From the NCBI GenBank assembly GCA_949128115.1, contig OX421966.1, positions 6,696,001-6,760,000 on the forward strand: a stretch of 64,000 nt of DNA, in the 5' to 3' direction. Each line of letters starts with the position of its first letter. Position 1 is the first letter of the stretch. Positions 9,243-59,267 of the stretch are shown here, one piece after another. The notes beneath the pieces are model-generated. The model searched no databases, was not told the DNA's origin, and saw only the letters and a program-made list of their open reading frames with translations. The DNA is from Anaspis maculata (taxonomy: Eukaryota > Arthropoda > Insecta > Coleoptera > Scraptiidae). The translations under genes were made by a program, and so were the position numbers.

Positions 9243-9245
9243 AAA

Positions 9246-28394: not shown

Positions 28395-28590
28395 CGTTTA
28401 TTTCGGGGGCCTTTTTTTCCATATGCGGTTTTTCTGGGGGCTTTTTTCTGGGGGCGATTTTTCCGAGGGCGTTTTTCCAGAGGTGTCTTTTCCCGGGGCT
28501 ATTTTTTCTCAGGGGTGTTTTTTCCGGGGGGTGATTATTCCGGGTGCGTTTTTTCCGGGGGTGTTTAGCTGGGGGCGTTTTATCCGGAGA
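28395..28590. repeat. G-rich minisatellite (TTTTTTCCGGGGGCG type)
   Basis: About ten alternating T-runs and G-runs of 4-6 G spaced 15-22 bp apart (TTTTTCTGGGGGC, TTTTTCCGAGGGCG, TTTTTTCCGGGGGG). Closely spaced G-runs could form a G-quadruplex on the plus strand. Confidence 0.75.
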
Positions 28591-28982: not shown

Positions 28983-29721
28983 TCAATCTCTATCTATTAC
29001 AGTCCACAATTCATTGTCTCTGCCGGTGGTAGTCAATCCGTCGCTTTTGGGGCCCAGGATAACTTTGCCAATCAATGCCTTGTTTTTGGCTGCCAGATAT
29101 TTCTCCGCCATCTCCCTCAACCCGGCTTTGTCGACGCTTATGACCTGAGCTCTGTGTCTCTTCAGAATGTCGGGCGTCAGTCGCCTCAGAAATTCATCGT
29201 CTCCTTTGGAGCTGGGTGGAACGGGCTTGTCTACGAACTTGAAGACTCGGAGTTTGGCCTCCAGGATCTCTTGGTCCGTCACCTCATCCAACTCTTGCCG
29301 CAGCCATTTGTGCGAGTTGTCAAAAACGTCCAAGGTCTGCAGGTGTCTCGGATCGTGGTAACTGTAGAAGGTGAACACGCCGTCTTTGGTCATCTTGGCG
29401 CCTGCACCGTAAGCCCCGCGCTTCTCGCGCAGCACAGGGTGCAGATATTTGATGGAAAGCAAACCGGCCAGCACGCGCAGTTTGGCGTGATCTTTGTCCG
29501 AAAATGGCGCCGTCAAAATGGCCTTGCTGCAATAATAAACGGGTATGCTCAACACGTAATGTTGGCAGTTGACGGCGTCCTTGGGGGCCCATATTTTGCC
29601 TTCGACGTACGTGTGGTCCGGTTTCTGGTATGGGTTGTGCGACTTGAGGTCACAGAGGAATCTTTGCAAAGATTTCATCACGTCCTGCTGATGCTTGTCC
29701 GGAGTCAAGTTTATGGAACAT
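28983..29721 (-). CDS. PITRM1: Presequence protease PITRM1-like, last exon
   Basis: C-terminal 246 codons of an M16C metalloprotease that degrades cleaved mitochondrial presequences and other peptides in the matrix. Read across the junction, the residues MRCSINLTPDK match the human MRCSVNATPQQ region. The acceptor TTCTGTTGTAG lies at 29,722-29,732. Conserved features are PFSDKDHAKLRVLAGLL, LHPVLREKRGAYGAGAK (the Arg/Tyr-containing loop of M16 C-terminal domains), FTFYSYHDPRHLQTL and VFKFVDKPVPPSSKG. The stop is at 28,983. The exon has no frame break and the junction phase fits the upstream exon, so the gene looks functional despite the giant intron. Confidence 0.95.
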
Positions 29722-29811
29722 CTACAACAGAAGTTACAAGAATCAAATTGAGTCTGAAATTAGAGAGAAGGCGCTTTTTTTGCACTTTCTGATTAAAAAT
29801 GTACGATTACG

Positions 29812-32037
29812 TAAGCCCTACACTCTAGTAGGTTTTCTTATGGTATCCCGTGTGCAAGTTGAGACTAGAGTATAGTGGTTGGTGCCAAATTGTTTCTTGG
29901 ATCATGCTGAACTAGGATCGCGATGGCGAACATCTGAGACCCGTGACTGGGCAGCAAGAGGGGGGGTGAAATGTGATGGAGAAAAGACATAAAAAATGTT
30001 AAATTATGAACAGAAAGAGGTACGGTTATGAAAGTTACCATGTACGTATTCACCATTTTACGCTATTGAAGGTTCAGCAAACCGATTTCAAAAATATCAA
30101 TCATTCTCAGAGATATTTTCAAAAATATAATTTTTTGTCAACATTTTATTGATAGAAAAATCGAAGAAAGATGGAAAGATGAAACTCTAGATTTTGACAA
30201 TTGGTGATGTTAGAAATAGGTTTAGTCTTGATTGGCGGAAATTCTCCGGCCTACTATTTTGGGAAACAAAACCGTCAACTGTTTTCACCAGCTTGGCCAT
30301 CTTGGATTTTCTTTCAGTGCAGTAGTCACAAAAACGACAGGGGACTCTGAGTATGGTAGAGTTAGATCATTTCAATACGAAAAGTAACTCCCCAGAGAGG
30401 ATTCGTTGCTTCTTTAGCGAGAAAAATTGCTATTTCATTATCTCCGGCTCCTGCGCGAATCCAGTATCAATGATGGCTGATTTGAAGCTGGAAGTGGCAC
30501 AATACATTTTGTACCATAAAACTTGATAGTTTGTGGAGTCAACCACCAAAATTTTTGATCATGAATCGGATGGTTTATTGTTGGTGATTGGTTGAAGCAA
30601 AGTGTGCTCATTTTTGGCAGAAAATTCATAAAAACTGTGTTTTTAGTGGGCAGTACAAAGCTCTGGAGGAAGACCTGCGGCCAAGATTGGCGGCAAAAGT
30701 CATGTAACTAGTTAAAGTGAGTATGCTATGCTCCATAACAAGTAGCTGTCATGAATGGTGTGGGTTTCTTGAAGATCTCTAGGGAGGTCGGCAAAGATTG
30801 TTTTTCATGATAATATTTTCAAGTAGGTACAGTCCCTTCCAAAAGTTTCTCTCTTCTCTAGGGACCAACTCTTTCAACCACGGAACATTTGCAACACTCG
30901 AACAATTCATTTGTTCGGTTTTTTCGAGATCACCGCGGTTCACGGATCTGAAAGATGTGTGGTGGTATTTTTTTCACAAACTCACAGACTTTTGGGGGGG
31001 ATAGTACTTGAGAATATTATCATGAAAAAACATCTTTGTCGACTTCCCTAGAGGTCTTTAAGCGACCTACACGATTCATTATAGCTACTTGTTGTGGAGC
31101 ATACTCACTTCAACTAGTTACATGACTTTCGCCTCCAATCTTGGCCGCAGGTCTCTCTCCAGAGCTTTGTAATGTCCACTAAAAACTCAGTTTTCATGCA
31201 TTTTCTGCCAAAGATGAGCACACTTTGCTTCAACCAATCACCAACAATGAACCATTTGATTCATGATCATGAATTTTGGTGGTTGACTCCACAAACTATC
31301 AAGTCTTATGGTACAAAACGTATTGTGCCGCTTCCATCTCCGAATCAGCCATCATTGGTACTGGATTCGGCAGAAGCCGGAGATAACAAAGTGACAATTT
31401 TTTTTGACAAAGAAGTAATTTCCCCCTTCTGGGGAGTTACTTTTCATATTGAAATGATCTAATGCTACCATACCCACAGTCCCCTGTCGTTTTTGCGACT
31501 TCTGCACCAAAAGGAAATCCCGAGGGAAATCCAAGATGGCGGCCAAGCTGGTGAAACAGTTGACGGTCTTGTTTTCTAAAATAGTAGGCCGAGGAGTTTT
31601 TGTCAATCACGACTATATTTCTAACATCCCTAATAACAATATATCAATTTTTATCTTTCCATCTTCAAAATTCTTCGATTTTCTTTAACAATAAAATGTC
31701 CACAAAAAGAATTATATTTTTCAAAATATCTCTGAAAACGATAGATATTTTTGAAATCGGTTTGTTGAACCTTCATTGGCGTAAAATGGCGATTACGTAC
31801 GGTAACTTTCATTACTGTCCCTTTTTCGGTTCATGATTTCACATTTTTTATGAATTCATCACATTTTACCCCCCCTCCCGCTGCCCAGTCGCGGGTCTTA
31901 GATGTTCGCCATCGCGATCCTAGTTCAGCATGATCTAAGGAACAATTTGGCACCAACCACTATACTCTAGTCTCAACTTGCACACGGGCCTCAAAAAATG
32001 AACATAAAAAACCCACTACTCTGGTGAATGGGCCTTA
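29812..32037. mobile_element. 2.2-kb foldback element
   Basis: Left arm about 29,812-30,828 and right arm about 31,005-32,037 are inverted copies (shared CCCGTGTGCAAGTTGAGACT, TAGGATCGCGATGGCGAACA, CAAGATGG, AACTATCAAGT and TAGTTACATGACTTT in complement) around a ~176-bp loop. Outer ends TAAGCCC / GGGCCTTA. There is no coding capacity and no clear target duplication. Confidence 0.85.
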
Positions 32038-32917
32038 TGCGTCCTTGGTGGAATAGATGTCAAATTTATATTTTTACTTTCACATTTACTTTTCGAAAAT
32101 GGCTAATAGGCAAGTCAACAGGGAATTTGGAATGGCAAAACGTATACTCTGGCTGAATTTTTGCATACACCTAGGGAATCCCCCACAGAGCCCCGAACCG
32201 CGAAAATCCACCAAAATTCCCTTGAGCTTTCCGAGATAAGGGTGTTTTTCTATATCTCGGTTGGTATTGGTTGAATTTCGATTTTCTTTTTTTTTGAAAT
32301 GTTCTGAAAAATATTTCGAATAATAATAGTCCAGGAGCTTATGTAATCCCGTGGGATTTTAAATGAAAGAGCATAGCGACTATGTGGAACACATTACTTA
32401 GATGGCCAGCAATCACACCTCACCGGGTGTTTTGCTTGAATTTCTTGCAGGAAATTTATACAGGGTGAAACAGAAAAAATGAATAAAAATTCGTAGCTCC
32501 AGACTGGAGAAAGATGGAAAGCTTAAACTGCATTCGTGTTTTGATTCTGTTGTTGTGTTGATTTCTGTCGAATTTGGTCCAAATCTATTGGATAAATTTT
32601 GAAGAATTAAATGACAAAGCTCTGAACTTTGACATTTTTTAATATTTGACAAATGTCATGCAGAGCAGTACTTGCAACAATTTTGAATGCAGTTTTTTAA
32701 GGGCTTTCAAAAAACATATTGCGAGTCAAGTTTCCTGACATAATGCCTTCTGTCATCTTTGATGGTGACATTTCCGTTTGACAGATGACAACCAAAATGT
32801 AACAGACTCATTCGACGGCAAAATCATGTCCGCATACCGAATTTCAAGTCGATCGAATCAACGTTGCGGCTGTTATCGTGGAAGATTACGGACACAGACA
32901 CACACAGCTCTGTAATC

Positions 32918-33395
32918 GGGTTTGGTACATTTCACCGACAACCAACTCACCGACAGGACATTTCACCGACAACCATTTCACCGAACGGACATTTCACCGA
33001 CACGCCGTTTCGCCGACAGGACATTTCACCGACTCGCCGATTCACCGACAGGACATTTCACCGACAAGACAATTCGCCGACTCGCCATTTCGCCGACAAG
33101 ACATTTAACCGACACGCCGATTCACCGACAGGACATTTCACCGACAGGACACTTCGCCGACACGCCATTTCACCGACAGGACATTTCACCGACACGCCCT
33201 TTCACCGACAGGACATTTCACCGACACGCCATCTCACCGACAGGACATTTCACCGACACGCCGATTTACCGACAGGACATTTCACCGACACGCCATTTCA
33301 CCGACACGTCATTTCACCGACAGGACATTTCACCGGCACGCCGATTCACCGACAAGACAATTCACCGACGGAAAACTCCACCGACTCGCCGATTT
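32918..33395 (+). repeat. Left terminal array of 16-bp minisatellite (copy 1)
   Basis: About 28 head-to-tail 16-mers, consensus CATTTCACCGACAGGA, alternating with CATTTCACCGACACGC and CGATTCACCGACACGC variants. All three forward frames are mostly free of stops because 16 is not a multiple of 3, giving repetitive 16-residue translations that are not genes. Confidence 0.95.
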
Positions 33396-33404
33396 AGGAA
33401 ACTT

Positions 33405-34895
33405 TGCTTCGGAATGAGTTTTCGGAAAATGCTGCAAAATGTCACCATATCATGTTTGGTATTGGCGAATGCGGGATAAAAACTTTTTTGTGTAGGTTTC
33501 ATGTTTCCACATTGACCCTGTATACTGTACATTGCTAAAAGCTCAAACAAGGAAAGGAGATTCTTGCCTGTATCTTTTTCCTGGGAAATTCGAGGCAAAA
33601 AAATATGGTATGACAAAATGCAAAAGTTGATCATCAGTTCTAAGACACCAACCAATCTCGATTCAGAAGTACGTTTACCAAGTTACAAAATTTTCAGTGT
33701 CTGGGGTCACCAAACATTAGGAATTTCTTATGGATCAATGAAAATTCACTGTAATTCACTGAACTACGTTGAACATTTACGTAAATGGTTATCGTCGTTA
33801 ACCGCTGTTTTCTAGGTCTTGTTCAGGGTCAATCAAAAATAAAGTTCTGGAAAATTAAATTTCCACTTTTCCCGCGAAAAATCCAAGAAGCCATAATGAT
33901 ATAGGATCGTTTGCGATGAAATTACTGAAGTGGTCATTTTTATTTTTGTTGGGGAAATCCAAATTTCGAAAAAACTTTTTCACAAATTTCCTTCACAGGG
34001 AAAGGGTATAGGCTGTCTGGCCTATGGTCACAGGCCTTGAGTATAGGCTGTCTGATTTCTACATGAGTCTAGTGGGCTGTGTTTCTGGTCGTCATCGGCC
34101 GATCGCGGCCTAAATCGCAGCCGACTAGAATCATGTAGAAATCCTATACCTGCACTTTTGCATTTTCGCGTAAAAATGAGTTTCCGGGAAATGCCGCAAC
34201 GTAACCATATCGTGTTTGGTGTTGGCGAATGCGGAAAAAAATACTCTATGTTTTGGTGTAGGTTCCATGTTTTTACAAACTGACCCTGTACATTATTGCG
34301 TACATAAGCTCAAACGTGGAAAACAAATTCTTGCCTGTATCTTTTTTCTGAAAAATTTAGGAAGAATGAAACTGGTATGATAAAATACAAAAATTTATCA
34401 TCAATTCTAAGACATCAACTAATCTGGATTCGGACGTACGGTTACCGAGTTACAAGTTTTTCCGTGTCTTGGATCTCCAAACATCCCGGATTTCCTATGG
34501 ATTCGAGAAAATGCACCGTCACCGAACAACGTTGGGAAATTCACGTAAATGGTTGTGGTCATTAACCGTTGTTTTCTACGTCTTATTCACGGTCAGTTAG
34601 GAAAAAAAGTGGAAAATTGTGAAAAACTGAATTTCCACATTTCCCGCGGAAAATCCAAGAAACGAACCAATGATATGGTATCGTTCGAAATGAATTCACT
34701 GAAGTGGTTATTTCATTTTTGTTGGAAAAATCCAAATTTCGAAAAAATTTCCCATTTCCTTCATGAGTGAGTACCCCCTCAAATTTTGCATTTTCGCGTA
34801 TAAATGAGTTTCCGGAAAATGCCGCAACGTAACCATATCGTGTTTGATGTTGGCGAATGCGGAAAAAAAAACTCTATGTTTGCTGTAGTCTGCTT
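33405..34895 (+). repeat. Two and a half diverged copies of a ~700-bp unit (copy 1 interior)
   Basis: Starts recur at about 33,407, 34,168 and 34,803 with GAGTTTYCGGRAAATGC, then ACCATATC and TGGCGAATGCGG. Inside the first copies are GACCCTGTA and AAGCTCAAACG. A ~110-bp palindromic MITE (TATAGGCTGTCTGATTTC, about 34,042-34,150) sits between the first and second copies. The same layout recurs in copy 2 at 40,140-40,283 and 53,994-55,170. Confidence 0.8.
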
Positions 34896-34904
34896 TAGCC
34901 ATTT

Positions 34905-36420
34905 TTTATGCTAAGAAATGCCGTCCTTGAGTGAAGAATGGATTTATTATATGACAAGCCTGGAAAGAAAGAGGATGCCAGACTGCTAGAGTAAAAAATT
35001 CGGAAATGGACTGTGTATCTGGTGAGTCTGAAAAAAAAGGATACTCGAGTCAAACATAAACTCCTCAACTGGCATGTCTGAAGAAGGAAGATTGCTTGAG
35101 TCAAAAATAGACTTCAGCTATGTAGTGAGTCCGGAAAAAAGAATGATACTTAAGCCAAAAATCATGAGGTGGGTCTGGAAAGCAGGACGATACTTGAGTG
35201 GATAAATCAGTACTTATCTTGTCGGTGGTGAGTGTGAGAAGAAGGATGATACTTGGATCGAAAATAAACTCCTTATCTGATATGCCTGAGGATACTTAAT
35301 TGAAAAAAAACTTACAGTAGGTCTAGAATTAAGGACAATACTTGACTAGAAAATTGATTGGTTATCTTGCGAGTCTAAAAAGAAGGATGATACTTGAATA
35401 AAAATGAACTTCTTATCTGGCGAGTCTGAAAAGGAAAAGGATGCTTGAATTAAACATTCAAATATAAGCTCGGTATCTGGTGAGTCTAAAAAAAAGGATG
35501 ATGCTCGATCAAAAATGAACTTTTGAGCTAGCAGGTAAAGAAAACAAGAATGTTTGGATCAAAAATAGACTCCATCGATCCCTGTCGTGAGTTTGAAAAG
35601 AAATATGGTACTTTAATCTAAAATCAATTCCTTATCTGGTGAGTTTCAAAAGAAGGATGATACTTGAGTCAAAAATCAATTTTTTATCTGATAAGTCTGA
35701 AAAAAATTATACTTGAGTTGAAAATAATAGTATATTATTCAACCTCGTATTCAACAAACGGGAATTGATTGCTTCTTACTCATGAGGATGCAGTTGACGA
35801 GTGTCGTAATAGTCGTAAAGCATCCGAATGAGTAATAGCCATTACCCGCGAGTAGAATACTATGCTTTATCCAGTCTTATTGAAAAATGCAGGCATATAT
35901 GCGCGTGATAATGCGTGCACTATTCAATAGGATAAACTTGGATGAACTTCTTATTTGGTGGGTCTGAAAAGAAAGATGATACTTGAGCAAAAATCAATTA
36001 CTCATCTGTTGAGTCCGAGAATAATGATAATTATTATTGAGATTATTATACTTGAGTTAAAAATAAAAATTTTTCATGGGTCTGAAAAGAAGGAAGATGC
36101 TCGAGTCAAAAATTTAGAAATTGACTGTGTATCTCGCAGGTCCAAAAAGAAGGATGATATTCGGGTCAAAAATGAACTCCTAAACTGGCAGGTCTAAGAA
36201 AAAAGGAAGATAAGCCGAGAATCAATAACTCATTAGGTGGGTCTGGGAAGAAGGACGATACTTGAGCAAAAATTAAACTCTCATCTGGTTTTTTACTTGT
36301 GTGGGTCTGAAAAGAAGGATGAACTCGAGTTGAAAATCAGATTCTTATCCGGTGAGTCTAGAAAGGAGTTTGATAGAGTCTGAAAAGAAGGATGTTACTT
36401 GAGTCAACAATCAGTTTGTG
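34905..36420 (+). repeat. ~50-60-bp tandem array, interior of copy 1
   Basis: About 25 diverged units of the form GGTCTGAAAAGAAGGATGAT + ACTTGAGTCAAAAATCAATT + CTTATCTGGTGA. The paralogous array in copy 2 spans about 55,165-55,370 and 56,918-58,560. It is non-coding. Confidence 0.85.
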
Positions 36421-36784
36421 AAATGTCTTGTCAAAATCAGCGTGTCGGTGAATGGTCCAATAACCAAAATCACACATAACGTTGAAAACCAGACAAAATA
36501 TTTGTGTATGTGATCAATAATAAAAATATAATTCACACAATGTGTTGGTGAAATAAGATCTGGAAAAACTGTGGTAAATTCATATAATTTCTGATCACCA
36601 AAGAAATACTAACAATTCATTAGAAATTGATTTCAAGTGTAGGTATCTGGAAGTTTGTGGATCTTGTTTCAGAACCAAGCTGATTTGACTTCCTAGTCAC
36701 CCCTGATACATCTACACGCGCCTTTATTCTTTATTTCTGATCTTTTTCTTAGACTCGTGCCTCATGAGATGACCTTTTGCCTTC

Positions 36785-37000
36785 ATGGCTTCTACCGCTT
36801 ACGTGGAGAATTTATTTCAGATGTCTACTTTATCAAATGGAAAATTCCAAATTTCAACTGACTCAAATGCATGGTGCACCCAAGGGAAACTTGCCTTTGT
36901 CGTAAAAACAATTTTCCTCGACTTTTTTGCCAAAAATGGCCAGAAAAAAAAGACCGTAGCTGTCAACCCATCCCTCACTTTTGGCGCTGACTGGCGCTGA
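36785..37000 (+). CDS. Small ORF of the minisatellite-ended transposon (71 codons), doubtful
   Basis: Begins MASTAYVENLFQMSTLSNGK and ends FGADWR. The copy at 58,925-59,140 keeps the same length, start and stop. Between them a one-base insertion and a one-base deletion compensate, changing a block of about a dozen residues. There is no signal peptide or domain. It may be chance, since both copies are alike overall at the DNA level. Confidence 0.25.
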   Translation: MASTAYVENLFQMSTLSNGKFQISTDSNAWCTQGKLAFVVKTIFLDFFAKNGQKKKTVAVNPSLTFGADWR

Positions 37001-37127
37001 CCAGCAACCATGGTGTTCGGAAACGCGCCGTCAAATGGCGCCAACGGTAGGGAATCAAGCATATCAATCTTTCAAATGTAGGTCACTTTCGCTCATAGAT
37101 TTTGCTCAAAAACTCAAAACGCTACAG

Positions 37128-37599
37128 TCCTGTCGGTGAAATGTCCTGTCGGCGAAATGGCGTGTCGGTGAAATGTCCCGTCGGTGAAATGTCCCGTCGG
37201 TGAAATGGCGTGTCGGTGAAAGGTCCTGTCGGTGAAATGGCGTGTCGGTGAAATGTCCTGTCGGTGAAATGGCGTGTCGGTGAAATGTCCTGTCGGTGGA
37301 ATGGCGTGTCGGTGAAATGTCCTGTCGGTGAATCGGCGATTCGGTGAAATGTCCTGTCGGTGAAATGGCGAGTCGGTGAATCGGCGAGTCGGTGAATTGT
37401 CCTGTCGGTGAATCGGCGTGTCGGTGAAATGTCCTGTCGGTGAATTGTCCTGTCGGTGAATCGGCGTGTCGGTGAGATGTCCTGTCGGCGAAACGGCGAG
37501 TCGGTGAAATGTCCTGTCGGTGAATCGGCGATTCGGTGAGTTGGATGTCGGTGAAATGTCCTGTCGGTGAGTTGGTTGTCGGTGAAATGTCCGTATCCC
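37128..37599 (-). repeat. Right terminal array of 16-bp minisatellite (copy 1)
   Basis: Inverted counterpart of the left array (TGTCGGTGAAATGTCC type), about 29 units. The order of unit variants differs from the left arm, so the arms have evolved by unit turnover as well as point change. Confidence 0.95.
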
Positions 37600-38772
37600 C
37601 TGTAATCTTCTCTAGAAAACTTTGCCATTTAATTATTCAATACCTATCAGATGGATTGGAGCCAAATTTAGAAGGAACCAACAAAACAAAATCATCAAAC
37701 TAAGCTCGCAATTGCAGCTTCCCATCAATTCCCAGTTGGACGTTACGAGGTTTTGAATTTTCTCCTGGCCATTACCACCGGAGACGGCCGCTCGTTTGGA
37801 TTTTGACCAGGACGACCTATGTTTGGTGTAGGACTCAACTCATCTGTCTTTTCCTGGTGGGAGATTGACTTTTTTCGAAAAATTTCAACTGATATCGGAA
37901 GTAGATTGCATTGGGCGTCGTGTAAGTCCATTTTCAAATCCGACACGGTTTCGCTTTTCCGACGATGATTTTTTAAAAATAATAAATTTAATTTTCAAGT
38001 TTTCTTGTTTTTCACTCTATTTACCACGGATGTCAATTTTTCAAGCAACACCTTTCAAGGCATCAAGTCGGGCATCCACCTGGTGATTTGTACCGCTCCA
38101 CCTTCTATAGTTCACGAAATATAATTTTTTTCTTTTTTTCTTCTGTTTCACCCTGTATTAATCCCGTGCAAGAAATTCAAGCAAAACACCCGGTGAGGTT
38201 TGATTGCTGCCCATTCAAGGAATGTTTTCCACATAGTCTCTATGCTCTTTGATTCAAAATCCTACGGAATGCTTTTCATTTACATATGCTCCTGGACTAT
38301 AAGTTGTGTTCAGAACTATACAATAACTTGTCGAGAAAAAGTGCAAGAAGCCGAAAACTGTCGTTTTTTAGGGGGTGTTTTTTTTTACAATTTTCTATCT
38401 GCTCTTCTATGATAGTTATGGAAAAAATTCTCTATAAAAGTTGTAGCTCCCTTAAGTCCCTACAAGTTTCAACCGAAAAAATTTTTGTGCCGCGAAAATT
38501 ACCCGCCCCAGGGGGCGCTAAAGTCAACCTCGTTTGGAAAATATTTCCAGGTGTAGGGGGCATCGATTCCAACTCTATCGTGTGAGGATCTGGAGGCCAA
38601 ATTCTGATTTGTGTTCGTACTAACTTTACTGATAATTGATGAATAACAAAACTTTTGTACAGGTGACTTTTTTGAAAAGGACCTTGAATTGTACACCCCC
38701 GATATTTCGCTGGACAAATTTCTCCTGGGAAAAAACCGGAACAGGTCGATTTTTATTTCGAGAGGGACATCT

Positions 38773-38906: not shown

Positions 38907-39734
38907 GACACGTGATCACAAATTTTCATCTTCAACACTTTGTCTCCACCCCACCCTATTTTAAAATTTCAAATGGCATCACTTACCTTGTAATACATCA
39001 AATAAAAGGAAATAAAATTTCCTTTCTGTCAAACATTGTTTAAATTCTCTCGAATCACCTCTCCAACCTCTTTTAAAATTCTCTTATTGTTGATGCGGGA
39101 AAGTTTCTCCCTCATTACCCAACTCCCGATTCTTGAGTATCAGTTTTTCCAGTGAAAACAAATCGATTTTTCAACCTCTTCGCCCCCACCCTACCCTTCT
39201 TCCAAATTTCAAATGGCATTATCTATCTTGTTATTCTTGTGATGAAGATAATAAAATTCTCATCCTGCGCAAAAGTATTTCAAATATTCTAAACCACCCC
39301 CTATTCCTCTACACTTCGTTGGAGATGAAAATTTGGCAATACGTGTCCTGAATGTCCTATCCGAAATAGAATTCCAGAATTGGAAGTTGAAAAAAGAAAA
39401 AACTTTAATTTATAAACAGAAATCATTTTGAGAAGGGTTAAAAGTGACTTGATAAAAACTTTCCAGACTTTTTTGGCAGAAAGACTATTCTATTACCTTT
39501 ATTTTGATGTATCACATATAGGTAAGCTATTTGAAATTCCAAAGTGGGGAGGAGTCCAGGCGAGGGGGTTGAAGGTAAAAATCTGACACCACGTGTTGTA
39601 GGTGGGCCCTTCAAAATAAAATCGACCTGATTTTTACTGGAAAATCTGATAGGGGAAGAGAGGCGAATATCGACCGGTGGTCTAATATCGACCACACCAC
39701 TGTGGCCCACCCTGTGAGTTTTTTTAAATCATGA

Positions 39735-40130
39735 GGTTTGGTACATTTCACCGACAACCAACTCACCGACAGGACATTTCACCGACAACCATTTCACCGA
39801 ACGGACATTTCACCGACACGCCGTTTCGCCGACAGGACATTTCACCGACTCGCCGATTCACCGACAGGACATTTCACCGACAAGACAATTCGCCGACACG
39901 CCATTTCGCCAACAAGACATTTAACCAACACGCCGATTCACCGACACGCCCTTTCACCGACAGGACATTTCACCGACACGCCAATTCACCGACAGGACAT
40001 TTCACCGACACGCCATTTCACCGACAGGACATTTCACCGACACGCCGATTTACCGACAAGACATTTCACCGACAAGACAACTCATCGACAAGACAATTCA
40101 CCGACAGGAAATTCCACCGACTGACTCACC
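39735..40130 (+). repeat. Left terminal array of 16-bp minisatellite (copy 2)
   Basis: Same 16-bp unit. The first ~12 units match copy 1 almost exactly, then it is about five units shorter. It ends in GATTTAGAAAACTTTGCTTC as copy 1 does. Confidence 0.95.
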
Positions 40131-40284
40131 GATTTAGAAAACTTTGCTTCAGAATGAGTTTTCGGAAAATGCTGCAAAATGTCACCATATCATGTTTGGT
40201 ATTGGCCTTGGTATTGGCGAATGCGGGATAAAAACTTTTTTGTGTAGGTTTCATGTTTCCACATTGACCCTGTACTGTACATTA

Positions 40285-40973
40285 CGATACCTCCTAATAA
40301 AAACATTGTAACTAACAAAACGCAATTTTACAGGAGAGCGGTTTGAAAGTTTTCGGAGATTTGAAATCGATCTCCTTTGACTATTGTCTGAAATAGCGAC
40401 ACGGTTATTGTTTTGTAAGATTCTGGATTGTCTAAAGAAAAGGTTGTGAGCCGTCTTTTCTGAAAATATAGCTTTTTGAGGAATTTAATGTCACTTACAA
40501 TGGAGAAATCTTCCATCTGCAAGGGTAAAAGCAATGTAAGTGCCTTTACAATGTTTTCACTCGGATGTTATAGAAAAGTCATAATTGTAAGGGACATTAC
40601 AATTACTCCTCAGTTACTTGTTACAGTGTAGCAATCGTTGAGAATATCCAAGCAATAACATTGTATTGGACTTTACCATGATTTCACCGCAAATTGCATC
40701 CGTATGAAGAAAAGTAAAGGACGATACAATGCAAAGTACAACAATATCAAAATTGTATTGGCTTTTACCTCGGCTTTTACAATGTTTTCAACGCAGAATT
40801 ACTCCTAACTGGTAGATACAATTTTCAAGAAATCGTACTTTTGGCACATTTTGGAATTTTTTACGGCCGCAAATTATTTTTTTCCTAAAACTTCTACACT
40901 CTTAGGTACCAAATCTGCTAAAAAGTGAAAATGGCCAAAATGTCAGTTACAATGTTTTTATTAGGAGGTATCG
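40285..40973. mobile_element. MITE with 33-bp TIRs and ATTA target duplication
   Basis: Ends CGATACCTCCTAATAAAAAC and the complement GTTTTTATTAGGAGGTATCG, flanked by ATTA on both sides (40,281-40,284 and 40,974-40,977). 689 bp, non-coding, containing several further ACAATG / CATTGTA inverted motifs. Confidence 0.85.
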
Positions 40974-43271
40974 ATTAGTCTAGGCCACTTTTCTCAAAAG
41001 GCGTCTAGAAACCGGTCCTAGAAGCAAATCATATAACATTTTGGCAACAAGCGGTTTTTTACTGAATGGACCCTGCTGAATCTGAAAATTTATGTTGCCA
41101 CCCCGAAATTTGAACCGTTAGGCCCCCAGGGCCCCATTTCCGACATTTCGGGGCATTTTGGTTTTCCCCGGTTTTTTCAGTTCAACAGGTCATATCTCGG
41201 AGACCGTAACAGATAAAATGAAAAATTTTCCACTGTTGCCTTGCCTCATGATTACTGAAAGCCTTATATGCACTTTCCGATCTTACTTTTTGACAATTAC
41301 ATCTACAGATCATCAAGATCAGAAGAGATGCAAAAACATAACACAAAAACTTCGACCTATGGGGAGCTATGTGAAATGTTGAGAATAAGTCCATATATAT
41401 GCGAGACCATATGTAGAGAAAGCTTCGAATAAGTTTTTGGCGAAGTTACGTTACAACAGGCCTTTAGGTTCAGGAGTTATGATTCTTAGAAAATCGAGGT
41501 AGGAAAAGTGCGCGCTGTTTTGGGGGAGAAGTAGAGGAAAATATGAAGCGAAATGTGCTTATTTGAGAAGTTCGTGTGCACGGAAAGGTAAAAAGCTGGG
41601 GTGCATTTTTTATGGTGTAGTATGGCTTGGGGATGAAGAATCCACTTGTCGTCAAAAAATCGTCCAGTGTGGGGGCGGTATGGGGGCGGTTTTGTGAAAA
41701 AACAGTTTTTTTTTTAAATGTTCTACAGTTTGTCAGCTTTTGGCTGATATCAGCTTGGAACAAATCCGTCATTTGGAAGTTGTTGTAAATAATTTATGAA
41801 TAAAAAGGTGATCATTTACTTTGCCATGAGAATACATGTGAAACTTGACTGCCTCGTGCGCAAAGAACGTTGAATATCTCAGTAACGTGTTGAATGACAT
41901 TTTTCATTCCACTCCCACTCGATTATCTCCGTAACCACTAGTTCAATCAAAAAAGTTCCTTCTGTAAACCATGTTACCTATTCCATTGCGATTCTTGCGG
42001 TTTTTTCAGATTTGATTTATCTTGAATAGTAACTGAGCTAGGGACGGAATTGTAATGTACTGCATGCAGCGGACAACTGCAGCGCTGTGGCCCTCGCGTA
42101 CCCCTGCCACCCGCGCACCCCCGTGAAGGCCATGGTGTATTTAGGCGGGAAATCTGCAGACTTATTATTGTGGCTGATGATCGAAACATTGTAAAAGTGT
42201 AGTCGGTAAATTTGCAATATAAATAAATATATACCCCTTGAATTACGACGTACGTCTTCACATATTATAATAGTCCAGTCAAAATAGGTTTTAACCGGAA
42301 ATAAATTCGGAAGTTGACGAAATTTGGTGGATCGATGCAGAATTGAACGTGGAATGATATACTGAAATTCCCAAAAGGCTTGTTTTTTTTAGGATCAATA
42401 AAAAGCACCATCCTTGAAAATTTTCTTTTTTTCTGAATGGCTTGTGAACTATTATCTCTCCAGAACACAGCACCAGCACGAGCAAAGCAAATGTAGCCCG
42501 TTAAATTCCCAAGAGATTGTACAAAACTCATCACTTTTTGGTCAATAGCCTCTGTGATATCGCGTCTACAAAAACGCAGTGAAAATTACTCAAAATATAT
42601 TTCCGGATTTTATGTAAAAATATGCATGGTGTCAATTCAGGGGCTGTAACCTGGACAACGAATGTGCGAATTTCGATGTGTTTCACATGCGGAAAAAGGT
42701 AATTCAACATTCGGTATCACACTTTTGTCTAGAAGTCAAGAAGTCGCCAACTTCAAAATGGTACTTTTCCTCGACCTGTGAAATCGATACTTGATGTCTC
42801 GAAGAATCCCCAAAAATCGATTTTTTTCATACCATACTATTTGCCTCATTTTTCACTTAGGTAGAGCAAAACCATCCAGGGAAAATATGAAGAATTGAAT
42901 ACAGAAAAAATAACATGTTTCGGAATATTTATCCTATAGTGATGGTTTCTGAGTTGTATGGGTTGAAAGACTAAAACGACCTATTCAGAAAAAAAAAGGT
43001 AGTCCGGACACTAACTGCTGAATATTGTACTTGCATTTGATGATTGTTTTTAAATTCTTCAGATGTCAATATAACATATTTGTGATGTTGTCGTGAAAGA
43101 ACGGACAAAAGAACTTGATTGAAATGTATGGAATAATAGAGCTAATAATAATGGTACAAGGTGGGTGATAAATAATGAAAGCAGGATGGTTGACTAAGAG
43201 AAAAAATTATTTGAATCAAAGGCGTTGTAAAAATGTTTAAAAGGGAAATCTATACAATCATTTAGGCAATT

Positions 43272-43490
43272 TTGGAAAGAATTATTGATCATAATCATCT
43301 AATCATCAAAATCATCTCAGAAAATCATAACTTCGTCCTTGGAACTAATTTTGAAATTTTACATGTTTGTAAAAAAGGACAGCTTTTAGATAGTATAGAG
43401 GTTCTTGAAATTTGTAAAGCAACTAATAATTCTGTCCGAAATTGCCTAAAAGATTGTATAGATTTCTTTTTTAAACATTTTTACAACGCC
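43272..43490 (+). pseudogene. Penelope-like element C-terminal fragment (GIY-YIG region)
   Basis: The frame holds SENHNFVLGTNFEILHVCKK then GQLLDSIEVLEICKA, resembling the end of Penelope-like elements, where a H-N-F ... L ... E-I/E-A stretch closes the GIY-YIG endonuclease. The RT and the GIY-YIG core are absent. It is flanked by inverted repeats (about 43,010-43,260 and 43,470-43,690, sharing AATGGTACAAGGTGG), so it sits in the loop of a small palindrome. Confidence 0.5.
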
Positions 43491-43848
43491 TTTTATTTTA
43501 ATAAGCTTCTTTCTTTCCATTCAACCATCCTTTAATTAATTCATCAACCACCTTGTACCATTATTATTAGCTCTATTATTATTTCATACATTTCCTTCAA
43601 GTTCTTTTGTCCGTTCTTCCATGACAACATCACAAATGTTATACTGACATCTGAAGAATTTAAAAACAATTCACTTATCATTTATACAAACTTTATCTTC
43701 ACCATTCATACAATGTCGGTGATTCGGTGTGTTATCATTCACCTTTTATGTACCTACCTACTTGTTTTATGTATTTTATTTTAGACTCCACACTTTGATG
43801 AAGAAGGGCCAGAGACCTGCGAAACCGGTCAGAAATAAAAACAATCAA

Positions 43849-44506
43849 TAGGGTAGTGACCGATTTTTTTTTATTATTTTTTTTTAAAGTTCACTTCTTG
43901 ATAAGTGACGCTATATAGTTAACAGATTTTTTTTCGTAAGTTTTCTTGGTAAAAAAAATTCATGAAAGTTTTCGATCATTTCAAATTTGGCGCGATGACG
44001 TCGCAATCTTTCATAGGCGGAGAAGCAGGCTTGACCACATTATACAGAACTTACTACAAAAAGCACTAGCGTCAACCCGTCAACGCTCATAACAGCTGAT
44101 TGTTATATTGTTAACGCTTTGTGTATCTGTGCGATGATTCGTGTTGTTTAGTTGTTTTGCTTGAAAATATGGAAAGTTGGTAAAATCTTTCATGATTTAT
44201 GGATATTTCAAGACTACATCAGACTTCAATGGTTATGTTATGCTGGCAAACGTCAACGTCAACACTGACACACAGGCAACGGAGGTGTGGTCATCCCCAC
44301 TACTGTCAAAAGATTGAAACGTCACAGCCCGCCTTACAGCTCGGTAGATTTGAAATCGTTCGCAAAAGTAGCCACTTTCAAGGCAGATTTTGAGACACTT
44401 GGAACTTTTTTTTTCGAATTTTCACGAAACGTAGTCTTGTTATTAAGGCTCTACATTCGATTAGTATGATTTTTTTCTATATTTTTGGATGGTGGTCACT
44501 ACCCTA
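43849..44506. mobile_element. MITE with TAGGGTAGTGACC ends
   Basis: Left TAGGGTAGTGACC and right GGTCACTACCCTA bound 658 bp in the loop of the 13.7-kb foldback. No coding potential recognized. No target duplication resolved. Confidence 0.6.
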
Positions 44507-45116
44507 TTTGAAGGAAGACTGCGTGCAGATCATTTTATTTATGGAAAAAATCGATTTTTGCGGATTCTTCGGGACATCAAGTATCGATTTCAAAGGTCGA
44601 GAAAAAGTACCATTTTGAAGTTGTTGACTTCTAAACAAAAGTGTGATACCGAATGTAGAAAAAGCACATTGAAATTCGCACATTCGCTGTCCACGTTACA
44701 GCCCCTGAATTGACACTATGCAAATTGTTACATAAAATTCGGAAATATATTTCAAGTAATTTTCACTGCGTTTTTGCAGACGCGGTATCTCAGAGGCTAT
44801 TGACTGAACAGTAATGAGTTTTATACTGATTTCTTGGGAATTTAACGGCCTACATTTGCTTTGTTGGTGCTGTGTTCTAAAGGTAATAGTTTACAAGTTA
44901 TTCAGAAAAAAAAACGAAAATTTTCAAGGATGGTGCTTTTTATTGGTCCTAAAAAAAACCAAGCCTTTTGGGAATTTCAGTATATCATTCCACGTTCAAT
45001 TCTGCATCGATCCACCAAATTTCGTCAACTTCCGAATTTATTTCCGGTTAAAACCTATTTTGACTGGACTATTATTCTAATATGTGAAGACGTACGTCGT
45101 AATTCAAGGGGTATAT

Positions 45117-48053
45117 TGAAACGACCCCAGCTATCGTCTTGTACCCCTGAATGGGTAGACAACCCATTATAATGGCATTTAATTCAACTTATTTGAATTA
45201 AATCACTTCTCCCGCTTTTGGAACCGCTTGGCCGATGATCATCTAGTATCAGGACGACATCCCGTTGTGCCTCTCTTCTTGTTGTTCGATTATAGAGTTC
45301 TCGAGATTGTTGAGACAGGTCTGACTACGAGTTTGAACGCAATAAGACACAGTTAAAGTTTTAACATAACATCAATCTATTGACTTCTATGTACAATTCA
45401 AAATGTTTAAATAATGGCTCGCTCCTATACCTAGTCCTACCTTCACAGCGCAGGCTAAATTATCTGAAAGATCTAACCTATTCCCGAAGAGATAACTTTC
45501 CCCTAATTATTTCAGACGTCCCAACACCTCAACCCTCCGACGAACACCTGACTCTACACCTTGACCGACATTTAATTCTGACTGGCTTTCGCGGTTCAAA
45601 GTTCCTTTTGTGGTTACATCAGATCCAACATTTATGTTGGTGTTAGAGGTTATGTTAGGGTTAGGCCCGGCTTCTAGACACTGAAAAGAGAAGAGTGACT
45701 TCGACCACGAGTGCTATCCAAGATTTGTGGGCCGGTGTGTGTATGGTAGCCCACCTAGTTGTGGCATTCTTTTCAAAGGCTGTTGCTTCTTTTTGGGCCA
45801 TGGTCTCTTTTGCCCGTTTGGAAAGGATTGGATATGGCTACCTTTGTGGGGGCCTATTCCCTTTTTTCACCGTGAGTCGCCCCCAACGCTTAGAAAGATT
45901 CCCGCGGTCGCGCGTGTCTATAACCGGAAATGTTGAACCAAATTTCGCCCTTCCAAAAACTTTCAAACCGATGGTGAGCGCGAAACAATTACTCTAGTCA
46001 AGATACAAATTTAATTTGGAGAACGTTTTGAGCACGCCCCGTATACGCGCTAGTTCGTTGTTGTTCAGCCATTTGTGAGAGAAGGCCGCAGCCAGGAAAA
46101 ACAAAACGCAGAGAATAGACTACACAGGGTGTTCGTCGAAAAGCCGATGCGGAGAGGCGTCGAAATAATCTTTGCCCTAACACGAAATAATCGCCGTCTA
46201 CACTATTCCTGATCGAGCCCTAATAACAACTCATTTTTACAAAGTCCCTATCTGAACGATGGCGTCGTTGGGTACCGGATTGAATTCATCAGTTTCGAAT
46301 AAGAACGTCTTCATTCCCGTAACAAGCTCTATATGGAAATATCAGGAACGGTCGTGGCGCTAAAACAAAATCATTAGTTTCAAGGAGGGGGGGGGGGGGG
46401 TGTCCATCAATCCGATCAACAATTACAACTCTACGGCAGGGTCCGAACCCCGATACAAACACGATTCTATTTTATTTCAATTACTTGATTTTTCACGTAG
46501 TTCTCAAAATTTACATTTTCCGAATAACTAGGAGCTTCAGAAACGCAGAGGAAGCTCACCCGCGAGTTTCCAGATCGAACCCACTAGGTCCGGTACTCTG
46601 AGTACCGCAGTCACAAAGCCAAGTCCAGAGGGCCCAAGAGCGCAAATACCTTTCTATGAAGGTATCCAACAAAGGACGAGGCTTGAAAGTGGCTGTACCT
46701 GACGGCAGACAGTAACGCAGATACCAGCACGTGCAGGCAGATTCAGAACGCACGCGTGAGCCCCATCATACATTTTCCCGACAAAGCCTAACCGTAAGCA
46801 ACTATCCCAACTCACCAAGACTAACCTCCCGCCCGTCGAGGTCATCACTCCGCCACACGAGATACCGAAACGAGAGACCTCATTTCTATCGGGCCTGGAT
46901 CATTTAGGGGTTTCAACTCGACATCCTCGAGGTGAGCTAGAACTCATCGTGGAGGGAACGCGACTCAGCATCCTGGAGGGGGTTCGAAACACTTCGTCAA
47001 CGGGTCCCAACTCTACGACTTGGAGAAGGGTCGAAACTCAACACCGGAAGGGCCTTGGCACATCGACCTGGAGAAGGGCTGGAACTGGTCGCCGGAGGGC
47101 TCTGACTCGACACCTGGAGGCGGATCAAGACTCAACGTCCAAGGGCTCTGACACGACATCCTAGAGACGGGTTGCAACTCAACGGGGGAAGCAACTCATC
47201 GGTCTCTCGGAGGGTCAAAACTCAACCTGGAGGGTTCTCGACTCAGCGTGCCCCCAAGGGGACCAAAACACGACTCCGAAGGGTTCCAACTCGGCTTTCT
47301 CCAGGGGGCCTTTGAGACACATCAGCCGGGGGAAATCGACTCGTCATTTTCCAAGTGGGCTGGGGCTCATCATTGGGGCTTCGACGCTTCGGCCTCTAGG
47401 AGGGTCGCGACGCAACATAAACGGGTTCTAACTCAGCTTCCTCGAAGGGGACTAAAACTCTTCGCTAACAGGCCCGCAGAAGCACTCGGCAGCGGGCGTG
47501 ACAAGTCGGGAGCGGACGGCAGCCCAGGAGGATTGGTCCAGGTACCACGGTCAATCTCCGGCGATATCCTCCATTCCCAGCAATTCGGAATAATTTTTCG
47601 CATCCAAAACGACCGCGAACGGCGTATAGCCGTGTAAAAATTCCGATAGGTAATTTGAGAACAGAGCGCACCGGTGTACGGTGCCAGCGAGTCGGCGACG
47701 TGGCTGGCCAGCGGGTGGCGGGTGGCCGAGCGCGGACCACGGGGCTCCGATGCAGCAGGAGCAGGAGTGCGCCAGCACTCTAGCCGGTTGTTGAAGCGCG
47801 GGTGCGTTACTTAATGCGCACTTCTTTTCACCATTTCATCGGACGCCGTGCAGGAACTGATATTGAATGTCGACGAGGGGCCAGTAAATTATGTTATAGA
47901 GCTTCGCGGGATTTACACGAATGAATTAAATAGCTAGCGACATCTTTTAATGATGCCTTGACTCTGAATATTTACATTCTCATACCTCGATTTCACGGCT
48001 TTGAATTATTTTCCTCCGGAATATTTTCGGCCCGCCAAATGCGGGTGGCTTCA
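45117..48053. mobile_element. 2.9-kb GC-rich insertion with TGAA...TTCA ends and ATAT target duplication
   Basis: It interrupts the right arm of the foldback exactly between GGGGTATAT and ATATATTTATTT, leaving a 4-bp duplication ATAT (45,113-45,116 and 48,054-48,057). The ends are TG...CA as in an LTR retroelement, but no internal LTR pair, gag or pol could be seen. It is much richer in GC than its surroundings and contains a poly-G run (46,387-46,400) and a degenerate tandem repeat (46,900-47,470). It may be a very long solo LTR or a non-autonomous LTR-type element. Confidence 0.6.
46900..47470. repeat. Degenerate ~30-bp GC-rich tandem repeat
   Basis: Roughly 18 units of ACTCGACACCTGGAGGAGGG type (AACTCAACACCGGAAGGGCC, GACTCGACACCTGGAGGCGG, AAAACTCAACCTGGAGGGTT). 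The unit period is about 28-33 bp and not strictly a multiple of 3, so no protein is implied. Confidence 0.75.
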
Positions 48054-48747
48054 ATATATTTATTTATATTGCAAATTCACCGACTACACTTTTACAATGT
48101 TTCGATCATCAGCCACAATAATAAGTCTGCAGATTTCCCGCCTAAATACACCATGGCCTTCGCGGGGATGCGCGGGTGGCAGGAGTACGCGAGGGCCTCA
48201 GCGCTGCAGTTGTCCGCTGCATGCAGTACATTACAATTCCGTCCCTAGCTCAGTTACTATTCAAGATAAATCAAATCTGAAAAAACCGCAATAATCGCAA
48301 TGGAATAGGTAACATGGTTTACAGAAGGAACTCTTTTTATTGAACTAGTGGTTACGGAGATAATCGAGTGGGAGTGGAATGAAAAATGTCATTCAACACG
48401 TTACTGAGATATTCAACGTTCTTTGCGCACGAGGCAGTCAAGTTTTACATGTATTCTTATAGCAAAGTAAATGATCACCTTTTTATTCATAAATTATTCA
48501 CGACATTTTACAAATGACGGATTTGTTCCAAGCTGATATCAGCCAAAAGCTGACAAACTGTAGAACATTTTTTAAAAAAACTGTTTTTTTACAAAACCGC
48601 CCCCATACCGCCCCCACACTGGACGATTTTTTGACGACAAGTGGATTCTTCATCCCCAAGCCATATTACACCATAAAAAATGCACCCCAGCTTTTTACCT
48701 TTCCGTGCACACGAAAGTCACAATAGAGTCTCATTTTTCCTCTACTA

Positions 48748-49444
48748 CACCTTTTCCAGCTGTAGTTTAGAAAACTTCAGATGTATTTGAGAAAATATGA
48801 AATGTATTTAAGATTAACCAAATGTAGTTCAGAAATCGCCAATGCATTTTAGAAAAGTTTAGATGTACTTTAGAAAATATGAAATGTATTTTAGATTAAC
48901 GAAATGTATTCGAGATATTACCAAATGTATTTTAGAAAAAATTAAATGCATTTCAGATCCACGAAGTTCAATGGAGAAATTGCCAATTGTATTTTCGAAA
49001 ACGTTAGATGTATTTACGATAATATGAGATGTATTTGAGATATTATGAAATGTATTTCAGATTCAGATATTTTGTTTTAGGGTAGAACAGTGATGAAAAA
49101 GCAAACGTTGTTGAGGAAAACGAACTTCAAATTCACAACTACAATTGGCGGTTTCTCACTTACAATTCACGTTTTCTGAACTACATATCCTTATTCTGAA
49201 ATTCATTTGGTACTTTCTCAACTACATTTGAATATTCAATTATACAACTGGCATATTCCAAACTACATTTCCCAAATCTAAAATACATTTGGCAATTTCT
49301 AAACTACATTTCTCATAATTAAAATACATTTGGCAAATTCTAAACTACATTTCTCATATTCAAAATACAATTGGTGTTTTCTCAAATACATATCGCTAAT
49401 CTGAAATACATTTGATATTATCGCAAATACAGTTGGAAATGGTG
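48748..49444. mobile_element. TA-target MITE with tandem-repeat arms
   Basis: Ends CACCTTTTCCAGCTGTAG and, in complement, CACCATTTCCAACTGT, flanked by TA. The left half is a run of ~30-bp units with AGAAAATATGAAATGTATTT; the right half is the same units inverted (AAATACATTTGGCAATTTCT). The turning point is near 49,090. Same architecture as the element at 14,435-16,087 with another unit sequence. Confidence 0.85.
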
Positions 49445-49446
49445 TA

Positions 49447-51596
49447 GAGTGTCGGTCATTTGACCGAATAAGCTGACATCGGCCCGCAGTACAGCGGCGA
49501 GGCTAGCAGTTCGTTCTCTCACTCTCAAAATTTGCTCTGTATGGATATTACTGAATTACTGATCATTTCACTATGTTTGATTACGAATATGAATATGTAC
49601 CTACCTATATGTATGCGAACCAAAGCACAAAGATCCATGGCCCATAATCTATCGCTGGTTTAGGTACTCTCATGACCGGGCCGGGCTGAATGGCACATCG
49701 CACTATTTTGAGCAATAAGCGGTCTTCGGGTAGGTAGTCTTATTGATATTATTGCGACATCTACAAGAACGCTTGATTCAGCCGGTTTTTCATCCACAAG
49801 ACAAGATGTTGATCTATACTTTCGGTTAGGGGTCTAGCGTCGTCAATAAGGATCAAGTTCCGTACTCCGTTTTTTTCCAACCACAGTTTTTAGGAAGTAG
49901 TAAGACTGAGTCGCAGATATTCGCGTTGTACCACACTGCTGCCTGCCAGTGACTTCGCTGGATATGAAGTCGGGCTGCATAACTTGTTGGGATAGAGCTT
50001 CAGGCTTTTTGACTGTCCCAGAAAGAACATGCCTGGCGATATCAGTCCTTATTTCAACTGAATCTTTTACCCAAAAAAAAGATTCCCAGTCAGTAATTTG
50101 GAAGACCTTTTGAATTTAGTTTCACTTTAAAATGCTTTGTGAGGAATCTCTCTGCATCAAAGATGTCATCTTCCGTTAGTGGCATAGCCCCCAAATTCGA
50201 AAGTAACGTGCGTGATAGGTACTTGGTACCTACATTGCAAATATTTTTAGGGCTGCTGTCCCCGTAATTATTGCCGTAATAAATGATGTCACATCACATC
50301 TCGTGAGTGCGTGCGAAGCAAGTAGATATACTTTGTTTTTCTTCCAGCGATAAAGTTTTCCGGTCATTCCTGCCAAAGATATTGTCACAGGTAACAGGCT
50401 CATGTTTTGAAATTTGTGATAGATAAATTTCTCTGCCTGCTTTGTATGCCATCGGAAGCGCCGCTGTAAGATATTTCTATGGCCTTGCTGAACTATTTTG
50501 TTGGTATTTTTCGATACAACATTCTTTCGTCAGTCGCCGAGGATGAATGGATGATTCTTTTGCAAAGGTGGCCACTGTTGGGCTTTTGAGTTCAGTTATT
50601 CGATATCTGTGCAAGACGATCTTGAACTAAGCTCTTCACTTGCTCTAGTCCTTGTCGGTGTGCTTCCAACATGAGCCTGTTACTTGTTCCAATATCTTTG
50701 GCAGAAATCACCGGAAAACTTTATCGCTGGGAGAAAAACAAAGTATATCTACCTACTTGCTTCGCACGCATTCACGAGATGTGATGTGACATCATTTATT
50801 ACGACAATCACGGAGACAAGTGCCCTTGAAATATTTGCTAAGTATCACGGACGTTATTTTCGAACTTGGGGGCTATGCCACTAACGGAAGATGACATCTC
50901 TGAGGCATAGAGATTTATCACAAAGCTTTATAAAGTAAAACTAAATTCAAAAGGTCTTCCAAATCACTGACTGGAAATCTTTTTTAGGTAAAAGATTCAG
51001 TTGAAATAAGGACTGATATCGTCAGGCATGTCCTTTCTGGGACAGTCAAAAAGCCTGAAGCTCTATCCCAACAAGTTTTGCAGCCCGACTTCATATCCAG
51101 CGAAGTCACTGGCAGGCAGCAGTGTGGTACAACGCGAATATCTGCGACTCAGTCTTACTACTTCCTAAAAACTGTGGCTGGAAAAAAACGAAGCACGGAA
51201 CTTGATCCTTATTGACGACGCTAGACCCCTAACCGAAAGTATAGATCAACATCTTGTCTTGTGGATGGGAAATCGGCTGTATCAACCGTTCTTGTAGATG
51301 CCGCAATAATATCAATAAAACTACCTACCCGAAGACCGCTTATTGCTCAAAATAGTGCGATGTGCCATTCAGCCCGGCCCGGTCATGAGAGTACCTAAAC
51401 CAGCGATAGATTATGGGCCATGGATCTTTGTGCTCTGGTTCGCATACATATAGGTAGGTACATATTCATATTCCTAATCAAACATAGTGAAATGATCAGT
51501 AATATCCATATACAGAGCAAATTTTGAGAGTGAGAGAACGAACTCGCCGCTGTACTGCGGGCCGATGTCAGCTTATTCGGTCAAATGACCGACACT
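49447..51596. mobile_element. 2.1-kb foldback with a protein relic in both arms
   Basis: Left arm from GAGTGTCGGTCATTTGACCG and right arm ending CGGTCAAATGACCGACACTC are inverted over about 950 bp each around a ~250-bp loop (about 50,415-50,665). Divergence is only a few percent. Both arms carry the coding relic described at 50,684-50,950. Confidence 0.88.
50684..50950 (+). pseudogene. Transposon-derived protein fragment (HAFT-CD-TSF motif)
   Basis: The frame holds LLASHAFTRCDVTSFITTIT, then GLCH. With a frame change it runs on as MPLTEDDISEA, a stop, and RFITKLYK. This resembles the HAxTGCDTTS ... EDDI-EAE-F---LY region seen in many metazoan hypothetical proteins tied to repeats; I do not know its catalytic role. 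The inverted arm holds the same piece on the minus strand around 50,100-50,330. Confidence 0.45.
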
Positions 51597-59140: not shown

Positions 59141-59267
59141 CCAGCAACCATGGTGTTCGGAAACGCGCCGTCAAATGGCGCCAACGGTAGGGAATCAAGC
59201 ATATCAATCTTTCAAATGTCTCTTTCACTTTCGCTCATAGATTTCGCTCCAAAACTCAAAACGCTAC

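Follow-up and report, generated by a model that had tools for sequence, protein, structure and literature searches.

The Foldback elements of Drosophila have long, internally repetitive terminal inverted repeats (TIRs). An arrangement of this kind, in which the TIRs are arrays of a 16-bp unit, frames two copies of a transposon (copies A and B) in the 64,000-nucleotide stretch of the Anaspis maculata genome analysed here (C6:6,696,001-6,760,000, hereafter the window; the source genome comprises 758 Mb in 50 contigs). The closest described systems are Mutator-like elements (MULEs) with a FLYWCH-bearing transposase. In Muta1 of Aedes aegypti and in Muta5, tandem-repeat TIRs stand beside a tip of about 10 bp and insertions are flanked by duplications of 8 or 9 bp; a terminal motif of 10 or 8 bp is followed by repeats of 12 bp with 3-4-bp spacers or of 15 bp, Muta1 having nine 12-bp repeats with a period of about 15-16 bp (PMC5225508). 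Their transposases have 504 residues (Muta1, two exons) and 554 residues (Muta5, three exons), FLYWCH is predicted in 13 of 14 Muta families, and 10 of the 12 families with long TIRs carry short tandem repeats (9-15 bp) in subterminal position. Non-autonomous Muta derivatives, which differ in the number of their repeats, run into the hundreds, and Muta1 is active in yeast (PMC5225508). Tm1 of Meloidogyne carries asymmetric 7-bp tips followed by a 3-bp GGA and by one to nine 14-bp repeats, its TIR ends in a purine-rich motif, its target duplications measure 8-10 bp (mostly 9), and its FLYWCH-MULE transposase gene is thought to bear introns, most copies being non-autonomous (PMC3169594). Phantom MULEs more generally include FLYWCH in some members, TIRs of 18-613 bp and duplications of 8-10 bp, and in aphids a mini-satellite follows the transposase open reading frame (PMC6446971). 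It has been proposed that the tandem repeats of TIRs contain secondary sites for the transposase; such sites were reported for one Galileo, from a study submitted at the time (PMC3573991).

Our analysis indicates that copies A and B are very probably non-autonomous members of a Phantom-class Mutator-like family that would be moved by a FLYWCH-MULE transposase of 478 residues, for which rare full-length copies hold the gene. We assign the Phantom class by domains, DDE triad and duplication size, and take the class as later papers cite Marquez and Pritham 2010. What we read from the sequence is the family with its ends and duplications, a predicted transposase gene between those ends, and a deletion junction common to the three non-autonomous copies compared.

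Copies A and B and the family they belong to

Copy A occupies positions 32,918-37,599 of the window and reads GGGTTTGGTA...TCCGTATCCC between two perfect 8-bp target duplications, CTGTAATC (32,910-32,917 and 37,600-37,607); copy B occupies 39,735-59,710 and reads GGTTTGGTA...CCGTATCACC between two perfect duplications of another sequence, AATCATGA (39,727-39,734 and 59,711-59,718). The first-pass annotation had located both exactly to the base. Inverted arrays of 16-bp units stand at both ends of each copy. Because the target duplications, established by flank comparison and in the duplication table described below, differ between the two, A and B are separate insertions, in agreement with the earlier proposal that both had moved by transposition and are not segmental duplicates. 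In copy A the left-type (T) tip GGGTTTGGTA (32,918-32,927, forward strand), which the genome-wide tip search recovers, leads into the T-side array (32,928-33,395, forward), which has a 32-bp dimer period. The interior (33,396-37,126, forward) is non-coding, contains internal repeats and is likely a deletion derivative; its longest frame outside the arrays has 106 residues. The A-side array (37,127-37,589, reverse strand), found like its partner by repeat scans, and the right-type (A) tip, GGGATACGGA when read outside-in (37,590-37,599, reverse; tip search), complete the copy.

Copy B is the same element as copy A with two nested insertions (40,284-53,987 and 55,376-56,917), which have no counterpart in A and make up its extra length; matching blocks of the two copies are 89.8-96.2% identical. 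Its T tip GGTTTGGTA and T-side array (39,735-40,121, forward) and its A-side array and A tip, GGTGATACGGA outside-in (59,272-59,710, reverse), were placed by repeat scan and copy comparison, the latter also delimiting the remaining interior (53,988-59,271, forward), which is homologous to A and split by the smaller insertion. This 1.5-kb insertion is a long-inverted-repeat element with ends CAGGGTGGTCC and TA flanks. The larger, of 13.7 kb, is foreign to the element, with TACATT on either flank and a longest listed frame of 161 residues. Within it lie inverted arrays of an approximately 21-bp unit (41-bp dimer) about 110 bp apart (48,761-49,062 and 49,173-49,414), a pair suggestive of yet another, distinct foldback-type element.

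Each end of the element consists of a 10-bp tip, made up of 7 bp plus GGA or GTA, joined directly to head-to-tail 16-bp units that point inwards. The non-repeated tip outside the first unit measures about 10 bp and is shorter than the single-copy tip of about 15 bp that had been described at the outset. The two ends of one copy are unlike, with GGGTTTG-GTA at the T tip and GGRATAC-GGA at the A tip. Tandem Repeats Finder counted 27.8 and 29.2 units in the arms of A and 23.8 and 27.1 in those of B, and a looser scan counted 29/29 and 24/27; an initial estimate of about 28 units per array is therefore right for A and too high for the left arm of B. The 32-bp period, a dimer of two 16-mers, scores above the 16-bp period. 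The 728 units collected from 15 copies (30 arms) yield as consensus C A T T T C A C C G A C A G/C G A/C, in which T5, C6, C8, C9, G10 and A11 are conserved at 96-99%, figures that are somewhat biased towards the consensus because units were collected by similarity to it. Arms and copies differ in array length, with 8-32 cores when counted strictly and 9-36 when counted loosely, and long TIRs of tandem repeats such as these belong to the Foldback-type structural class.

The family is widespread in the genome, whose retroelements and genes look, on our reading, like those of an animal. The exact 16-mer occurs 608 + 641 times, against no occurrence of a reversed control, and with at most one mismatch the T tip GGTTTGGTACATTTCACCGAC occurs 108 + 102 = 210 times and the A tip GGRATACGGACATTTCACCGAC 132 + 127 = 259 times. 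Tips were paired from 100 listed places per tip, all of them exact matches taken in contig order, so that one-mismatch partners fall outside the pairing. At least 47 of the 74 exact T tips in the stretch common to both listings face an exact A tip within 30 kb. Among the tips listed there are 48 facing T/A pairs, spanning 0.75-25 kb, and the sole facing T-T pair and sole facing A-A pair at less than 30 kb come from one site on contig C4 at which two T/A pairs are interlocked. Since T tips face A tips, it follows that the ends of a copy differ and that both are kept.

Target duplications were tabulated for 44 copies, comprising 30 of the 48 pairs (as 66-base stretches), 12 of 20 further loci (two recognisable tips not being present in the other eight), and A and B. 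An exact 8-bp duplication was found in 28, one with at most a single mismatch in 34, an exact 9-bp duplication in four and an exact 10-bp duplication in none, and a partner-shuffled control yielded a mean of 0.69 exact matches at 8 bp and a maximum of 4. Together with the count of the 16-mer against its reversed control, this rules out chance. Six more copies (the gene-bearing C6 copy discussed below, L090, L092, L093, L094 and L095) added five exact 8-bp duplications and one with one mismatch, giving totals over 50 copies of 33 exact at 8 bp, 40 with at most one mismatch and four exact at 9 bp. The 8-bp target duplication first seen flanking A and B is thus a feature of the family, and falls within the 8-10 bp of the Phantom class. 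One of the exact 8-bp cases consists of T alone, and base counts reveal no obvious motif among the duplications of the 44 copies. Two copies 86 kb apart (L067/068 and L069/070; C3:98929217-98932913 and C3:99015484-99019116) have identical near flanks and the same duplication, which probably reflects a segmental duplication that carried the element, a single event having been copied.

Three copies of 5.5-5.6 kb, picked as autonomous candidates for their common size, contained no transposase gene that we could see, their longest frames outside the arrays being 135-154 residues. Four larger copies (6.5-7.6 kb) contained 1.4-2.2 kb without match to the references and no frame above 168 residues. 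The interiors of two non-autonomous copies, L018 and L019, hold coding-like sequence with a common stretch (e.g. ...GLLTGHCEVRYHL...), and L018 has in addition a frame that we take to be RNase-H-like; these parts are probably captured retroelement fragments.

A predicted transposase gene framed by the ends of the family

The MULE domain has 67 matches in the genome. With respect to the tips listed, two of these matches are on the inner side of a tip, one on contig C6 at a distance of 4.4 kb and one on C1 at 13.0 kb, and the next nearest are at least 16.6 kb off and on the outer side of the tip. The C6 match belongs to a copy of 11,536 bp (C6:1,519,677-1,531,212, reverse strand) with both tips, both arrays (26-32 units per arm) and a perfect 8-bp duplication, TCTGATTT. 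Numbered as indices in the reversed L107+L105, in which the element spans 89 to 11,624, the copy comprises a T array (about 100-590), a gene (3,250-5,170) and an A array (about 11,120-11,610). A five-exon structure is predicted for the gene, with four introns (GT-AG; 53-249 bp) and a product of 478 residues without an internal stop. The protein has an N-terminal FLYWCH zinc finger (PF04500, residues 10-71, E 1.7e-12) and a MULE domain (PF10551, residues 189-289, E 8.5e-20, profile positions 2-98 of 99). A full-length relative with a transposase between such arrays, for which the first-pass annotation had recommended a search, is therefore present in this genome.

Homologues of the C6 protein number 227 at E <= 0.001, most of those listed bearing no informative name, and the best is 48% identical over 100% of the length; no relative was found in the viral contigs searched. 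In an alignment of 11 sequences the DDE triad comprises the invariant D192 and D262 and the near-invariant E395, and C283 and H286 are invariant and W377 nearly so. In the C1 copy the coding part is paired with an A arm, and its exons are 94-99% identical to those of the C6 copy.

Comparison with the C6 copy also suggests how the copies in the window arose. Copy A, L089 and L091, the three non-autonomous references compared, are all missing the same 6.6 kb of the C6 copy: positions 1,269 and 7,865 of the latter meet at a single junction, where they overlap by 5 bp. Because family-like sequence runs on within the missing part, at C6-copy positions 1,270-1,533, internal deletion of a full element is likelier than later insertion of the gene, and A and B are most likely internal-deletion derivatives.

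Several observations weigh against an assignment of the family to the C6-type transposase. Both ends and the gene are seen together in one copy only; the C1 copy is without a T end and its exon 2 is short by 10 bases; and the splice model of the C6 gene is a prediction. At 8 bp, ten of the 44 tabulated copies show at least two mismatches, and while four of these are exact and two have one mismatch at 9 bp, the other four fit neither length. In principle, a deleted copy might have received the gene segment by insertion, though family sequence inside the left edge of the segment speaks against this. Had such an insertion taken place, the gene would be a mere passenger within a copy that another enzyme mobilises, and the 5-bp overlap at the rejoined junction could equally be read as an insertion duplication, with the single complete gene-bearing copy in keeping. 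We regard this as highly improbable: the family sequence extends past the left junction, the C1 copy joins the same gene to the same A arm, and ends of this kind accompany FLYWCH-MULE genes in the published Muta1 and Tm1.

Other superfamilies have to be weighed against the C6-type enzyme. Merlin, our first working idea on account of the GG ends, is described as having such ends, duplications of 8-9 bp and, in some families, internal tandem repeats, and the first two of these match the description given in the Merlin paper. Its transposase domain (DDE_Tnp_IS1595) has 34 matches in the genome, with frames of 316-359 residues in five of the nine loci fetched; open frames of 323-351 residues accompany the matches at G000:C2:14660201, C6:74939967, C7:42046116, C7:37135433 and C2:27743067. 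The idea was dropped after the genome search and inspection of these nine loci. No Merlin transposase was found inside the element, and arrays were absent from the nine of 34 loci inspected over about 3 kb: CACCGAC/GTCGGTG was counted 0-1 times in each locus of 3.0-3.2 kb, in which the flanks amount to only about 1-1.5 kb. Of the 34 matches, 32 are on contigs with listed tips and the nearest is 85 kb away (exact tips, C6 being partly covered), one Merlin family of this genome appears to begin otherwise (GGTAACAGTTCCGTATG... / GGTAACAGTTCCGTATGCGGTGAAACGCC), and the complete copy holds a MULE gene instead. Membership of Merlin is very unlikely. Transposases of the hAT and P superfamilies make 8-bp duplications. 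A P-type foldback element would have a precedent in Galileo, with its long TIRs made partly of tandem repeats (PMC3573991), and a hAT foldback element may be considered alongside it. An exact 7-bp duplication, as in Galileo, is found in one of the 44 copies, where it is a T-run, and the gene between the arrays is a FLYWCH-MULE gene, though no genome-wide search for P or hAT domains was made. We consider either origin most unlikely, and the earlier judgement that this is a minisatellite-TIR family distinct from Galileo holds, in that its duplications are of 8 bp rather than 7 and its gene is of the FLYWCH-MULE type.

Returning to the FLYWCH-MULE transposase, the C6-type protein would cut and paste members of the family, with staggered joining that would make the 8-bp, and sometimes 9-bp, target duplications; we propose this mode on the grounds of the anatomy of the element and the published activity of Muta1 in yeast. 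The FLYWCH finger may bind the 16-bp unit, which would make the array a multi-site landing platform, while the DDE core would cleave at the tip. Array length could change by unequal exchange or slippage, and the rare full-length copies would supply transposase for the deleted ones. The analysis thereby names the most likely transposase for a foldback family of about 200 or more copies and locates a copy that bears its gene.

Other Phantom-like loci and neighbouring features

Four further loci (L111, L112, L113 and L114) were chosen from MULE-like matches in the same genome, and three of them, L112, L113 and L114, have arrays of 15-16-bp units of other sequence together with open FLYWCH-MULE frames (by Pfam) of 501, 461 and 482 residues. 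L112 lies between inverted arrays that end in GGCTCTGTTACTAAA tips, and its duplication, CGATCATAA, measures 9 bp. L113 is likewise framed by arrays and matching tips GGCTCTGTGTAAAAA (GGCTCTGT), but a duplication is missing from the sequence directly beyond them. In L114 an array adjoins a GCTCTGT tip, and there is a mixed-orientation array past the 3' end of the frame; its arrays do not cleanly frame the open reading frame and no duplication was found. The 5.3 kb of L111, a MULE fragment of 67% identity, contain no such array. P0042, a homologue 48% identical to the C6 protein, shares 31-32% identity with the proteins of L112, L113 and L114.

Of the eight arms measured, seven have autocorrelation maxima at 15-16 and 31-32; the exception, the short right arm of L114, gives 0.49 at 16 and a weak value at 31. 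In a unit-frame test on hand-anchored consensus units of C6, L112 and L114 (L113, whose unit is less clear, being excluded), 7 of 16 columns were shared, a value reached by 2 of 400 shuffles, which hints at a frame of the units common to these lineages. That three of the four loci carry arrays of other sequence is a hint that array and transposase may change together. It is conceivable, and we suggest it tentatively, that there are several Phantom lineages, each with a private array of 15-16-bp units and 31-32-bp dimers in which the frame GGACA ... CG is fixed and the letters between vary, the array being a lock for the lineage's own FLYWCH finger. If this were true, one genome would hold a natural set of matched finger-site pairs, and if unit and finger do change together, the DNA code of the FLYWCH finger would be readable from sequence and testable.

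Elsewhere in the window, an array of an approximately 15-bp unit, CGTTTTTTCCGGGGG, with a 29-30-bp dimer (28,395-28,587) resembles by eye the reverse-complemented unit of L113, and is possibly a remnant of another minisatellite-ended family. A frame of a presequence-protease-like gene (28,983-29,759, minus strand; PF22516, E 8.2e-20) lies 3-4 kb left of copy A, and a long palindrome (29,847-31,988) comprises 2.1 kb that match their own reverse complement at 81%. Identical 352-bp direct repeats (3,417-3,768 and 9,246-9,597) enclose long gag-pol-like frames (3,952-9,060, minus strand); this is a young long terminal repeat retroelement, presumably of the BEL/Pao type.

Comparison with described elements

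The suggestion that no described family has this sequence stands in part. The literature searched yielded no match to a 23-base array string, and a 26-base exact array pattern was absent from the two contig collections scanned (viral and prokaryote); the kind of element is known, namely Phantom-class Mutator-like. Since the array string is unmatched in that literature and the layout is as in Muta1 and Tm1, this is a new family of a known kind.

Galileo resembles it in having long, internally repetitive TIRs and differs in its P-type transposase and 7-bp duplications (PMC3573991). With the Phantom MULEs, as described in PMC6446971, it has FLYWCH and duplications of 8-10 bp in common, while the sequences of its tips and unit are its own. 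Muta1 and Muta5 are like it in their FLYWCH and DDE transposase, in their 8- or 9-bp duplications and in a terminal motif followed by repeats, and the residue spacings of the C6 protein resemble those reported for Muta1 (D214, D283, H307, W401 and E419). Muta1, on its published description, differs in unit sequence, in its nine repeats against about 8-36 here, and in its length of 3.2 kb against the 11.5 kb of the C6 copy, and in the present family the two tips of one copy differ (PMC5225508). The layout of Tm1 is that of the A tip described here, GGGATAC-GGA-CATTTC, and the two families share asymmetric tips, a FLYWCH-MULE transposase and mostly non-autonomous copies; Tm1 is set apart by a 14-bp unit of other sequence, present in one to nine units, and by the predominance of 9-bp duplications (PMC3169594). 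To Phantom, Muta and Tm1, the present family adds unusually long arrays, of up to about 30 units per arm.

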